Assembly (NCBI RefSeq): GCF_007830055.1 | Contig: NZ_VLLE01000002.1 | Location: forward strand, 135,953-199,952 | Source of the DNA: Lacibacter cauensis | GTDB taxonomy: Bacteria; Bacteroidota; Bacteroidia; Chitinophagales; Chitinophagaceae | Direction: 5' to 3' | Length of the DNA: 64,000 nucleotides | Shown here: positions 33,430-37,733 of the stretch, in pieces | How the letters are laid out: each line of letters begins with the position of its first letter | Position numbering within the stretch: position 1 is the stretch's first letter | The notes under the pieces: model-generated | What the model saw: the letters and a program-made list of their open reading frames with translations, nothing else | What the model was told of the DNA's origin: nothing | Databases searched by the model: none | Program-made: the position numbers and the translations under genes

Positions 33430-34038
33430 TTAATCGTGCAAATGAATATCGGGATTCGTTGCATGAAATACACCCAATGGATTCGGATACCAAACCCATG
33501 CATGCAACAGCCATAAACCAAAGCCGGTGTTTTTATCCCACACATCATTTGAACCTGTAAAACCTTCCGGTGCTTTATCGGGCGAAAGTGAGATGGGTAC
33601 TGCATATTCTACTGCTACCAGTTGCATACTGCCATCTTCCATTTTGTTATACACCAGTATTTCGGGCTTTCTATAATCGAACATGTCGTCAACATGCGCC
33701 ATCTTCATAAAGTGTGTGCCCATGTTTTCTACAATTACATTGATGTTGGTATAACCGTCTTTAATGGCATTGAGCGTATCTCTGTAACGTGCTGTTGCTG
33801 CACGTGCCTGTTGTAATTCCCATAGTGTAATGGCATTAAACGAAGCGTTGTTATGTAACAGGGTAGCAGGCAGCAGCATGTTTGTTTTGGCTGCTGTTGA
33901 AGGAACTGTTAGTGGTTCTGCAACGGTTGATACTTCTTTTGAGCAGCTGATAAAAACTGTTGACAATAAAAGAGCGAAAAATAAATAGTGGATAGCAACG
34001 ACCTTGTTTAAGATGGCGTTTGTGTTTTTAGTTAACAT
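33430..34038 (-). CDS. uncharacterised lipoprotein
   Basis: A 202-residue lipoprotein. An N-terminal hydrophobic segment (VVAIHYLFFALLLSTVFISC) ends in a lipobox. The mature domain has a short helix (ITLWELQQARAATARYRDTL) and a beta-rich end with several Trp (NTGFGLWLLHAWVWYPN and similar). The sequence VWYPNPLGVFHATNPDIHLHD resembles the C-terminal block of a Bacteroidota hypothetical family. I cannot name it. The start is set at 34038, where the signal begins. Confidence 0.7.
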   Translation of the reverse strand: MLTKNTNAILNKVVAIHYLFFALLLSTVFISCSKEVSTVAEPLTVPSTAAKTNMLLPATLLHNNASFNAITLWELQQARAATARYRDTLNAIKDGYTNINVIVENMGTHFMKMAHVDDMFDYRKPEILVYNKMEDGSMQLVAVEYAVPISLSPDKAPEGFTGSNDVWDKNTGFGLWLLHAWVWYPNPLGVFHATNPDIHLHD

Positions 34039-34188: not shown

Positions 34189-34208
34189 GCCTGTAGAAAC
34201 ATACAGGC
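34189..34208 (-). terminator. hairpin after the DUF4242 gene
   Basis: GCCTGTA and TACAGGC form a 7-bp stem with a six-base loop. On the minus strand it lies 21 bases past the stop codon of the gene at 34229 and is followed by ACGTTTTC. A weak terminator. Confidence 0.5.
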
Positions 34209-34228: not shown

Positions 34229-34615
34229 TTATTGCTCCGCTGTTGCAGGGCTGATGGTGCTGGCGATTTCTGTGATGGTTGTAATGGGAAAGCCTCCTTT
34301 TTGTGCATGCTCACGCAGCAGACCTTCGTTTTGCGCCTGGTATACACAATAAATTTTGTTGCCTGCAACATAGCTGTGCAGCCATTTAATTTTTGGTCCC
34401 ATTTCCTTTAATACGCCACAGGATTTTTGTGAAATACCTTTCAGGTCGTTGGCTGTTAACTGGCTGGCACCGGGTATATCCCGTTCAATCAAATAGGTCT
34501 TCATGACCGGTTCTTTTTTGGAAGTAGTATTGTTATTGGTTTGCGCCATGGAAGTAATACCTGCAAATAATAAGATGGCTGCAAAAGCAAAGCGATAGAT
34601 GATGTTGTGTTTCAT
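34229..34615 (-). CDS. secreted DUF4242 (SCO4226-like nickel-binding) domain protein
   Basis: A 128-residue protein with an SPI signal (residues 1-24, ending SMAQT). The remaining part is one DUF4242 ferredoxin-like domain: KTYLIERDIPGASQLTANDL is the first strand-helix, and IKWLHSYVAGNKIYCVYQAQNEGLLREHA is the second strand pair with the helix. The domain is known from SCO4226, a nickel-binding protein; nickel binding here is inference. The upstream gene on the same strand carries the same domain in its N-terminus. The start at 34615 is set at the signal peptide. Confidence 0.82.
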   Translation of the reverse strand: MKHNIIYRFAFAAILLFAGITSMAQTNNNTTSKKEPVMKTYLIERDIPGASQLTANDLKGISQKSCGVLKEMGPKIKWLHSYVAGNKIYCVYQAQNEGLLREHAQKGGFPITTITEIASTISPATAEQ

Positions 34616-34726
34616 AACAGCATATTTAGTTGGTGAAGAATACACCAAAGATAAAATGCTGTTATGCGCCTGTGTTAGTCCATTTCATGCAGAAAATGGT
34701 AAAATTCATGCAAGCTGTAAAATTCT

Positions 34727-35815
34727 TTACAGCAACTCCTGGTAAGTAATCGGCAGTAAACCGAATTTCTTTTTAAAACATTTTGTAAAATAGGAGGGGC
34801 TGTTGAAGCCACAATCAAACGTAATCTCTGTAATGTTCTGCGCACCTTTGCGTAACCGTTCAATGGCTTTGGCAAGACGATATTCTTTCAACAGATCATT
34901 GGGAGAGTAACCGGTGAGTGCAGTTGTTTTACGATAGAGTTGCGATTGACTCATCGCCAGCGATTGTGCATATTCATCCATTTGAAAATCGGCTTCGCTA
35001 TATTTTTCTTCCAACGCATTGAACAATGCATTGAGTAATTGCTCATCGTTGGCGGATAAACTAAAGAGGTCTTCTTCTGTTTTATGCATCAGCTCTTTTG
35101 CCACCAGCTCCCGTACACTTGCAGAAATACCTACCTGTTCCTTTCGCTGTATAAAATGCATGCGATGCAAAAACTGCAATGTTTCGCCAAAGAGTTTATC
35201 ATGTTGTGTAACCGGTTCACCTGCATGTATGCTGATTCGGCAACTGCTGTTGATTTGTTGCAGTTGACGGTGAATTGCAAGTCCTGCTGCCACTGCTTTT
35301 TCTGCAGTAATAAATGAACCGATTATGCTGTGCTGTTCCTGGATGGCTTCTTTACCATTCTTTGCCGTTATCTCGTTGCGAATAATTTCCAGTATCTGCT
35401 GTACTTTCTTTTTTGCGGATTCAGTACCGGCTTCGTGTTGCAGTAAAACTGTATCCGGTAATTGTACCGACATGATCATGCGGTACGATGTCTCATCAAT
35501 CAGTAATAAACCATTGTCGGTTAATGGTGCATCTGAAGGATCGGTGATGCGGCCGAGAAAAGATTGTACAAAATCGGGTTGTACTTCAATGATCTTGTGC
35601 GGTACCAATCCATGCGAACGGTTGTGCAATTCGTACACCGTTTCTTTCGATGGTGCATCAATTAAACAGAACACATGACCACGCATCTCGTCAACCCAAT
35701 AAGTGAGGCATTTACAGCTATGGTCTTTTTCTAAATAAACATCCTGTCGGTGTGCTTCAGCCACATCCTTTGCATTTACGCCCGGCACAATGTGGAGGTC
35801 CATGTAGATCGGCAT
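34727..35815 (-). CDS. DUF4242 / degenerate nucleotide-cyclase / AraC fusion regulator
   Basis: A 362-residue cytosolic protein with three parts. Residues 1-80 are a DUF4242 domain rich in His and Cys (SCKCLTYWVDEMRGHVFCLI, LHNRSHGLVPHKI). Residues about 105-245 align with class III adenylyl/guanylyl cyclases (AVAAGLAIHRQLQ, CRISIHAGEPV, DKLFGETLQFLHRM, VRELVAKEL). The first metal Asp (FTDM in active enzymes) is replaced by MSVQL, and the GDG Asp by QHS, so it is probably inactive. Residues 262-362 are an AraC double HTH (LAMSQSQLYRKTTALTGYSP, ITFDCGFNSPSYFTKCFKKKFG). It probably senses a metal or small ligand and controls the neighbouring gene. Confidence 0.85.
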   Translation of the reverse strand: MPIYMDLHIVPGVNAKDVAEAHRQDVYLEKDHSCKCLTYWVDEMRGHVFCLIDAPSKETVYELHNRSHGLVPHKIIEVQPDFVQSFLGRITDPSDAPLTDNGLLLIDETSYRMIMSVQLPDTVLLQHEAGTESAKKKVQQILEIIRNEITAKNGKEAIQEQHSIIGSFITAEKAVAAGLAIHRQLQQINSSCRISIHAGEPVTQHDKLFGETLQFLHRMHFIQRKEQVGISASVRELVAKELMHKTEEDLFSLSANDEQLLNALFNALEEKYSEADFQMDEYAQSLAMSQSQLYRKTTALTGYSPNDLLKEYRLAKAIERLRKGAQNITEITFDCGFNSPSYFTKCFKKKFGLLPITYQELL

Positions 35816-35888: not shown

Positions 35889-36614
35889 CTAAGCCTGTTG
35901 CAGCAGCGATACAATTTTTTTCAGTTCATCTGCATCGGCCACATACATATTTCCTGCATCTGTAACATTTGGATTTTCAAAGGTCATGGGATTGTTTACA
36001 GCTTTACGTGCAGAGGCATGAAACTCATATGCTCCGGTTTCATTAGCCAGTTGCAGAACGTTTGATGAACGCACACCTGCACCCGGCATAATACTGATGC
36101 GGTTGTTGGCAGCCGCAACCAATTGTTTCAGCAATGGTATTCCTTCCGGTGCTGATGATGCAAGTCCTGAAGTAAGAATGCGTTCGCAACCACAGGCAAT
36201 CAATGTTTCCAATGCAGCAAATGGATCGGGTACAGCATCGAAAGCACGATTACAAGTAACCTTCATGGGGTAGGCCAGTTCAACCACCCGTTGCATACGG
36301 GCTGCATCGATAGTGCCGTTTTGTAATTGTGCACCAACGGACACTCCGTTGCAACCAAGCTCTTTACAAACAGCAATATCATCCAGTACAATGTTCCATT
36401 CATCTGCATCATAAAAATAATTCATGCTGCGTGGACGAATGATCGGATACACATCAATACTAACGGCCTCCCGTACACGTTTAATGGTTCCGTACGATGG
36501 GGTGGTTCCGCCTTCAATGGGATTATCACATAACTCAACCCTTACTGCTCCCGCCTGCTCAGCAATCATGCAGCTCTGAATAGTAAAAGCACAAACCTCC
36601 AGTTGACGTTTCAT
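35889..36614 (-). CDS. cutC: copper homeostasis protein CutC
   Basis: A 241-residue TIM-barrel protein matching CutC across its length. MKRQLEVCAFTIQSCMIAEQ, GAVRVELCDNPIEGGTTPSY, YPIIRPRSMNYFYDADEWNI, VTCNRAFDAVPDPFAALETL and GCERILTSGLASSAPEGIPL are conserved blocks. CutC proteins have been linked to copper tolerance, although their direct role is debated. The gene is single and divergent from the cyanophycinase gene. Confidence 0.95.
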   Translation of the reverse strand: MKRQLEVCAFTIQSCMIAEQAGAVRVELCDNPIEGGTTPSYGTIKRVREAVSIDVYPIIRPRSMNYFYDADEWNIVLDDIAVCKELGCNGVSVGAQLQNGTIDAARMQRVVELAYPMKVTCNRAFDAVPDPFAALETLIACGCERILTSGLASSAPEGIPLLKQLVAAANNRISIMPGAGVRSSNVLQLANETGAYEFHASARKAVNNPMTFENPNVTDAGNMYVADADELKKIVSLLQQA

Positions 36615-36692: not shown

Positions 36693-37733
36693 ATGTTTAA
36701 ACTACTACAACTTTCGCTCAGCTGCCTGCTGATGTCTTCCTGCAGCAAAGAGGTAACCGTAACGGATACTGTTCCTGCTGCCACTACCGTTTCGGCCAAA
36801 CCTGCACCTTCTGTTGTAACGTACTTAACCGGCGATGCTGCTGATGTAACCACAGCAGCAACAGGTGGGTTATTGTTAATGGGTGGCAGTACCGATGTGG
36901 ATGCGGCCATTGCCTGGTTTTTGCAACGTGCAGCGGGAGGCGATGTGGTGGTAATCCGTTCCAGCGGTGCAGATGGCTACAATACGTACATGTACAATAT
37001 GGTTGCTGTTAACTCTGTTGAAACAATTATTATCGACAGCAGGGAAAAGGCATCGCTTGCAACTGTTGCTGATAAAATACGCAATGCAGAAGCATTGTTT
37101 ATTGCGGGCGGTGACCAATGGAATTATGTGAACTACTGGAAGAATACTGCTACCGAAGATGCGATTAATTATCTCATTAATACAAAAAAAGTAACGGTGG
37201 GTGGTACAAGCGCAGGTCTTGCAGTTTTAGGTTCGGCTTACTATAGTGCAGCAACAGGTTCGGCCACCAGTGCACAGGCATTGGCTAATCCCTATCACAA
37301 GTATGTAACATTAGGTGCCAACGATTTTATTAATGCGCCTTTGCTTGCAAATACCATTACCGATTCGCATTACTCACAAAGAACCAGACAAGGCAGGCAT
37401 ATTACTTTTATGGCAAGGTTGATGAAAGACTTCGGTTATACAACCACTGTAAAAGGAATTGGTATAGATGAACAAACTGCAGTGTGCATTGATGCTACAG
37501 GTATTGGTAAAGTGTACGGGTTGAACAATGCTTACTTTTTAAAGAATACCACACTTGCAGCAGAAACATGTGTGAGTGGTTCGCCGCTTACCTGGAACAG
37601 GAATGCACAGGCGATATCAGCTTACCGCATTGCGGGTTCGGCAACAGGCAACGGTTCATTTAATGCCGGCAACTGGACGTTTAGCGGCGGCACATCTTAT
37701 TTTTACTATGTAAACAACGGTGTATTGTTTTAG
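36693..37733 (+). CDS. cyanophycinase-like S51 peptidase lipoprotein
   Basis: A 346-residue lipoprotein (lipobox LLMSSC). The domain is S51/cyanophycinase. GGLLLMGGSTDVDAAIAWFL is the N-terminal Rossmann-like turn. ALFIAGGDQWNYVNYWK is the second strand. KVTVGGTSAGLAVLG holds the nucleophile Ser in GTSAGL, and RQGRHITFMARLMKDF carries conserved His/Arg. GIGIDEQTAVCIDATG ends the core. Members cleave beta-Asp-Arg or alpha-Asp peptides; in Bacteroidota the exported forms may act on other isoaspartyl substrates. A strong terminator follows. Confidence 0.9.
   Translation: MFKLLQLSLSCLLMSSCSKEVTVTDTVPAATTVSAKPAPSVVTYLTGDAADVTTAATGGLLLMGGSTDVDAAIAWFLQRAAGGDVVVIRSSGADGYNTYMYNMVAVNSVETIIIDSREKASLATVADKIRNAEALFIAGGDQWNYVNYWKNTATEDAINYLINTKKVTVGGTSAGLAVLGSAYYSAATGSATSAQALANPYHKYVTLGANDFINAPLLANTITDSHYSQRTRQGRHITFMARLMKDFGYTTTVKGIGIDEQTAVCIDATGIGKVYGLNNAYFLKNTTLAAETCVSGSPLTWNRNAQAISAYRIAGSATGNGSFNAGNWTFSGGTSYFYYVNNGVLF

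Follow-up and report, generated by a model that had tools for sequence, protein, structure and literature searches.

Two neighbouring genes of Lacibacter cauensis encode a DUF4242 domain, one in a protein that appears to be exported and the other at the front of a regulator that continues into a cyclase-like domain and a helix-turn-helix (HTH) of the AraC type. The locus raises three connected questions: which part of such a regulator would perceive a signal, what has become of its cyclase, and whether the secreted gene beside it is its target. We herein address them for a window of 64,000 nucleotides, by which we mean the whole stretch of DNA that was analysed, and for related loci. The regulator and the secreted protein are the only DUF4242 genes of the L. 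cauensis genome.

Eighty of 211 confirmed relatives were retained, and the 57 loci compared below were drawn from a search that favoured near relatives. Five partial regulators (L005, L072, L081, L082 and L085) lie outside the 57-regulator alignment, although L081, L082 and L085 were still used for the partner and the operator.

Architecture of the regulator and its partner

The regulator gene (34727..35815, reverse strand) encodes 362 amino acids in three parts, all read from the same strand. An SCO4226-like (DUF4242) domain matching PDB 4oi6_A occupies residues 4–78 (35582..35806), a degenerate class III cyclase homology domain (CHD) extends over about residues 109–252 (35060..35491), and an AraC-type DNA-binding domain forms residues 258–362 (34730..35044). 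The structure model is confident (pLDDT 94.4), and structure comparison retrieved solved folds for all three parts, confirming the architecture that had been read from the translation. The DUF4242 part superposes on 4oi6_A with TMt 0.88 and an rmsd of 1.0 Å, the CHD has the class III cyclase fold, and the C-terminus is a double HTH of the AraC/XylS type (HTH_18).

The adjoining gene (34229..34615, reverse strand) encodes a DUF4242 protein of 128 amino acids from the ATG at 34615, with a signal peptide judged by eye; its reading frame is also readable from a TTG at 34648. The gathering cut-off of PF14026 (SCO4226-like; 28.5 bits) was passed with scores of 59.9 and 90.1 bits. On the other hand, in searches with NF033706, the equivalog of nickel-binding SCO4226, the regulator scored 51.2 bits, below the 125-bit cut-off, and the secreted protein gave no match.

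Fusions of cyclase domains to HTH domains are already known in Actinobacteria, and databases contain proteins joining DUF4242 to a cyclase. The actinobacterial regulators, the CHD+LuxR group, join a class III cyclase domain to an HTH, and cyclase activity has been described for one of them, Rv0386 (PMC3466318); their HTH is of the LuxR type, in contrast to the AraC HTH of the window regulator. Free DUF4242-cyclases on plasmids of Rhizobiaceae and Azospirillum show the same DUF4242-CHD order and 27–33% identity over window residues 1–243. They differ in having no HTH and are annotated "nickel-binding protein" where gene names are given. The regulator resembles the one-component activators of the AraC/XylS family in its C-terminal double HTH and in repeated candidate sites that abut the promoter, but the place of their usual sensor domain is taken by DUF4242 and a dead cyclase.

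Loss of the cyclase catalytic residues

In the window regulator, the two metal-binding aspartates are replaced by Q118 and H162, in agreement with the original prediction, the purine-specifying Lys by Ile and the purine-specifying Asp by Lys, while the Arg is kept. Compared with Rv1900c and Ma1120, nucleotidyl cyclases of class III, the protein lacks both the metal aspartates and the substrate-specifying residues. The alignment of 57 orthologues contains no regulator with both metal aspartates (0/57) and eight with one; the purine Lys is found in 4/57, the purine Asp in 3/57 and the Arg in 13/57. As a yardstick, we used six HTH-less DUF4242-cyclase proteins from alphaproteobacterial plasmids, chosen from the best 15 of 1477 plasmid records matched by tblastn. 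In all six, the metal aspartates (the first in FTD, the second in GDG), the purine-specifying Lys and Asp and also the Arg are intact. The claim that the CHD is a dead class III cyclase domain is thus borne out across the orthologues, and cyclase activity would not be expected of the window protein.

The residues were not lost everywhere. Among other Bacteroidota AraC fusions, both metal aspartates are present in 12 of 23: six of the first 13 fusions, for which a phylum-wide draw supplied members of other families (L130a, L131, L133a, L133b, L135a and L141), where two more have one, and six of 10 further distinct fusions, where one has a single Asp and three have none. Several of these Asp-keeping fusions are near-copies (the a-type proteins are 84–91% identical), so that they are not independent. 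A quick tree, which carries long-branch warnings and four wrong labels, places most of them outside the window's branch. Since AraC fusions with an intact metal site exist, decay after fusion is the simplest order, and the HTH fusion probably preceded the catalytic decay.

In one of these proteins, L131 (the same as L180:7870-9013, reverse strand), both metal aspartates, the purine-specifying Lys and Asp and also the Arg are retained; it may be a fusion of a still active cyclase to a DNA-binding domain. Elsewhere (L178:7128-9482, L201, L202 and L204), two DUF4242-CHD-AraC paralogues lie side by side and complement each other in these residues. The first member has both metal aspartates but Trp for Arg in 4/4 genomes with the pair, and the second has the Arg in 4/4 and misses the first metal Asp in 2/4. 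It is possible that such a pair forms a pseudo-heterodimeric cyclase. More tentatively, DUF4242-CHD-AraC proteins might represent a live series from enzyme to transcription factor, in which some Asp-keepers both make a cyclic nucleotide and bind DNA, the paralogue halves complement each other, and the window type is a pure relay.

DUF4242 as the probable sensing part

Across the 57 regulators, mean pairwise identity is 63% in DUF4242, 54% in the HTH and 39% in the CHD, the least conserved domain. Ten pairs were tried for dN/dS, eight being computable per domain, with values of 0.00–0.24 for DUF4242, 0.09–0.20 for the CHD and 0.03–0.06 for the HTH; the CHD is under purifying selection despite its lowest identity. 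Six polar DUF4242 residues (D6, H8, H22, D25, C50 and H64) are invariant in 57/57 regulators and in 13/13 further regulators, of which L120 equals L059 in the compared part and from which L117 was omitted as a copy of L043. On the model, D6 and H8 occupy alternating positions of strand 1; helix 1 carries H22 and D25, separated by one turn, and helix 2 carries H64, a placement that makes a shared pocket plausible.

Among the closest known systems is SCO4226 of Streptomyces coelicolor. In the published account, it is described as a single-domain protein of 82 amino acids that binds Ni2+ with a Kd of about 10 µM, through Asp43, Ser46 and His76 at the Ni-1 site and His23 at Ni-2, and its gene as induced by Ni2+ and not by Cu2+, Mn2+ or Co2+ (PMC4186839). 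SCO4226 (PF14026; PDB 4oi3, 4oi6) has the same fold and, by alignment and inspection, shares D6, H8, H22, D25, C50 and H64. It differs in being a stand-alone protein, whereas the window protein is fused to a CHD and an HTH and does not keep most of the crystal nickel ligands. From the alignment, we take Asp43, Ser46, His76 and His23 to correspond to D42, R45, I76 and H22 of the regulator. It follows from these counterparts that the invariant polar set is not the crystal nickel set: only H22 of the six invariants corresponds to a crystal ligand (His23), and His76 of Ni-1 becomes I76.

The secreted copy presents a different picture again. Its family (54 rows) has its own invariants, namely I6, R8, S28, V31, I39, W41, S44, Y45, C53, Y55, H66, P73 and I84. 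Among the six polar residues of the regulator, only C50 (C53) and H64 (H66) have clear equivalents; by inspection, D6, H8, H22 and D25, four of the six, are replaced. Judged by sequence, the two DUF4242 domains belong to one superfamily and have a different site. The original prediction of the same sensor inside and outside the cytoplasm holds as far as the common superfamily goes and is weakened at the site, where these four residues are replaced.

A conserved pair and a candidate operator

A partner DUF4242 reading frame was found by HMM search in 51/57 loci, always on the regulator's strand. It lies within 600 bp downstream in 47, further downstream in three (L057, L068 and L078) and upstream in one (L075), and a hydrophobic signal-like N-terminus is present in 47/51 partners, L065, L067, L078 and L080 being the exceptions. 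Culturable species with the pair include Niastella yeongjuensis (L052), Mucilaginibacter flavidus (L050) and Ginsengibacter hankyongi (L049). The HMM search found no partner in 6/57 loci, where the flanks of L006 are short. In L080, a globin-like reading frame, recognised by eye, lies between regulator and partner. A phylum-wide draw of 296 genomes gave a DUF4242 domain in 36 at E <= 0.001 (33 above the cut-off) and a reading frame of fused length (356–387 amino acids) in 14. Because a stand-alone DUF4242 gene adjoins it in only 6 of these 14, the pairing is characteristic of certain branches. The suggestion that the two genes form one circuit is supported for the window's branch, where the pair is conserved.

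Between the two genes lies an operator-like element, TTTTACCATTTTCTGCATGAAATGGACTAA (34675..34704, reverse strand), with the sequence blocks TTTTACC and TGCATGAA. Scored with a matrix that excludes the window, L002, L003, L004 and L031, it reaches 15.0 bits, more than any other place in the 64-kb window; the highest score among 1000 first-order shuffles was 9.5. Downstream of it by 21 bp is TATCTTTG (34646..34653, reverse strand), which we take to be a Bacteroidota-type −7 box from the consensus assumed here.

The same element of about 30 bp, with the consensus TTTTACCATTTATTGAATGATTTGTTATAG, stands upstream of the partner gene in 47/54 loci, in each of which the best site exceeds all first-order shuffles with the own locus excluded from the matrix; the matrix scan did not find it in 7/54 partner upstream regions. 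Two copies lie 33 bp apart in 24 loci, three are spaced by 60 and then 33 bp in one, and two are 32 bp apart in two; five loci have other spacings (61 three times, 72 and 83), and fifteen have one copy. A −7 box of the form TAnnTTYR follows the last copy by 20 or 21 bp in 44/47, with one other occurrence within 60 bp.

A whole-genome scan used a sequence-only model built from 71 sites, excluding those of the window and L031, with 150 candidates scored per genome in 20 genomes. All six matches at E < 1e-4 (two in G154 and one each in G003, G007, G013 and G146) fall between regulator and partner. Nine of the scanned genomes have the regulator: five carry a strong site, and in G241 a weak one (E 0.007) stands where it would be expected. 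By this measure the site of the window itself is weak, third in its genome at E 0.058, and the scan gave no site in G004, where the regulator is cut by a contig end, or in G039, where it is divergent. At E < 0.001, it gave no element in the nine congeners that lack a full regulator, nor in G017 and G308, which have the stand-alone DUF4242 gene only. In the flavobacterial loci L069 (22.4 bits) and L066 (17.6 bits), the element stands before the regulator instead, as it does weakly in L070 (14.7 bits); the next best score there among the 57 is 1.6. The expectation that the regulator acts on DNA upstream of 34615 has therefore gained a predicted site, one that tracks the regulator in the genomes scanned, and such action is probable.

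Ending upstream of the −7 box, the element lies outside the transcript of that promoter. Promoters of this type typically carry a TTG at −33, and the sites of AraC-type activators usually abut the core promoter. In the window, the element abuts the core promoter, and the spacer lacks a TTG at the place expected for a −33 box, an arrangement that argues for activation.

Proposed mechanism and alternatives

We consider it fairly probable that the regulator acts locally, as a one-component activator that turns on the secreted gene, and that in it DUF4242 senses, the dead cyclase relays and the HTH binds the element. The signal, some transition metal or reactive small molecule, would be bound by the DUF4242 domain. 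A dimer of dead cyclase domains would pass the signal to the HTHs, much as live cyclases relay signals to their catalytic dimer. The regulator would then bind the predicted element and, to go by its position, activate rather than repress the secreted DUF4242 gene, whose product may deal with this compound, or one related to it, outside the cytoplasm. The family would probably have originated when an HTH was joined to a DUF4242-cyclase enzyme, the catalytic residues being lost later.

The original prediction was that the cyclase remnant may itself have become a ligand sensor. In this reading, the HTH would be controlled by a nucleotide or some other small molecule that the remnant binds with no metal catalysis. 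The confidently kept CHD fold and the purifying selection on it in the eight computable pairs are consistent with this reading, which we nevertheless regard as unlikely. Neither the metal aspartates nor the purine Lys and Asp are conserved, the domain varies more than its neighbours, and its invariants in the 57-regulator alignment (R112, G154, S167, F168, A174, G199, P201 and F209) look structural, although counts of this kind would miss a pocket for a different ligand. Since the residues of the nucleotide site are not conserved, the CHD is likelier a dimer or relay scaffold than a nucleotide sensor. A different reading concerns the binding site on the DNA: the element might belong to another factor, the neighbours being linked merely by history. 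Orthologous promoters can share the sites of any factor, and two regulator-bearing genomes (G004, with its cut gene, and G039) have no strong site. Against this stand the lack of the element, at E < 0.001, in every scanned genome without a full regulator, its place before the regulator itself in L066 and L069, and its doubling, which is the habit of AraC-family sites; we hold this alternative to be very improbable.

Two further alternatives differ in the compound to which the pair would respond. In a nickel circuit, Ni2+ on the cytoplasmic DUF4242 domain would induce a secreted nickel-binding protein, as the binding and induction described for SCO4226 might suggest, and H22 and D42 match its Ni-2 ligand His23 and Ni-1 ligand Asp43. 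We find such a circuit quite unlikely: only D42 stays of the Ni-1 set (R45 occurs in 52/57 and I76 in 56/57 regulators), the secreted copy replaces H8, H22 and D25 by inspection, and no nickel uptake or export gene was recognised by eye among the 12 neighbour families common to at least four loci, few of which are annotated. Also unlikely, if less so, is a stress circuit for peroxide or reactive small molecules, in which DUF4242, the neighbouring gene 3 and OsmC would make up the envelope and cytoplasmic arms. The invariant C50 would suit it, an OsmC-type gene lies near the pair in 18/57 loci (Pfam was run on one), and stand-alone DUF4242 genes occur near a bacterial globin (L188), OsmC (L198) and DUF1326 (L188 and L199). 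However, the window pair has no clustered member of the OsmC family nearby, all 18 OsmC-type genes lie on the opposite strand, and the stand-alone contexts are 12 regions inspected without a chance count.

Wider neighbourhood and significance

Gene 3 (33430..34038, reverse strand) encodes a lipoprotein-like protein and is found near the regulator in 14/57 loci. A terminator-like hairpin (34189..34208, reverse strand) lies between it and gene 2, the secreted gene; it is listed for both strands, shuffles gave a mean of 0.8 sites, and the tail on this strand is weak. Searches of Pfam, NCBIfam and PDB gave no convincing match for gene 3 at the levels used, and its family consensus reads ...NMGHHFMK...PEILVYN...LVAVEYAVP...LWLLHAWVW..NPxGVFN.TNP. 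A lipoprotein-like protein of G195 (L187:5700-7061) contains three tandem gene-3 repeats, and its neighbours are a LuxR-type ATPase regulator and stand-alone DUF4242 genes, so that gene 3 seems to accompany DUF4242 even where the regulator differs.

Several other neighbours were observed. On the far side of the regulator, the window has a CutC-family gene (35892-36614) and an S51 protein that resembles cyanophycinase and starts like a lipoprotein (36693-37733), neither of which clusters in a neighbour family common to at least four loci. L185:7531-8194 (reverse strand; the same as L132) encodes a lipoprotein-like protein with two tandem DUF4242 domains, and stand-alone DUF4242 genes lie near Rv2258c-type winged-HTH methyltransferases in L188 and L198. 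In L178, L179, L182 and L183, loci in which no secreted partner was found, a similar-looking FAD/BBE-type oxidoreductase reading frame of 460–480 amino acids lies at most about 8 kb from the regulator (Pfam was run on L178 and L182 only).

For the family, the locus would offer a case with living intermediates in which a signalling enzyme has decayed into part of a transcription factor, complete with a predicted target and operator. The Asp-keeping relatives illustrate a possible evolutionary route from enzyme to switch, and the regulator offers genetic access to the DUF4242 proteins, which are poorly understood. The interest of the system lies in this series from enzyme to regulator and in its direct testability.
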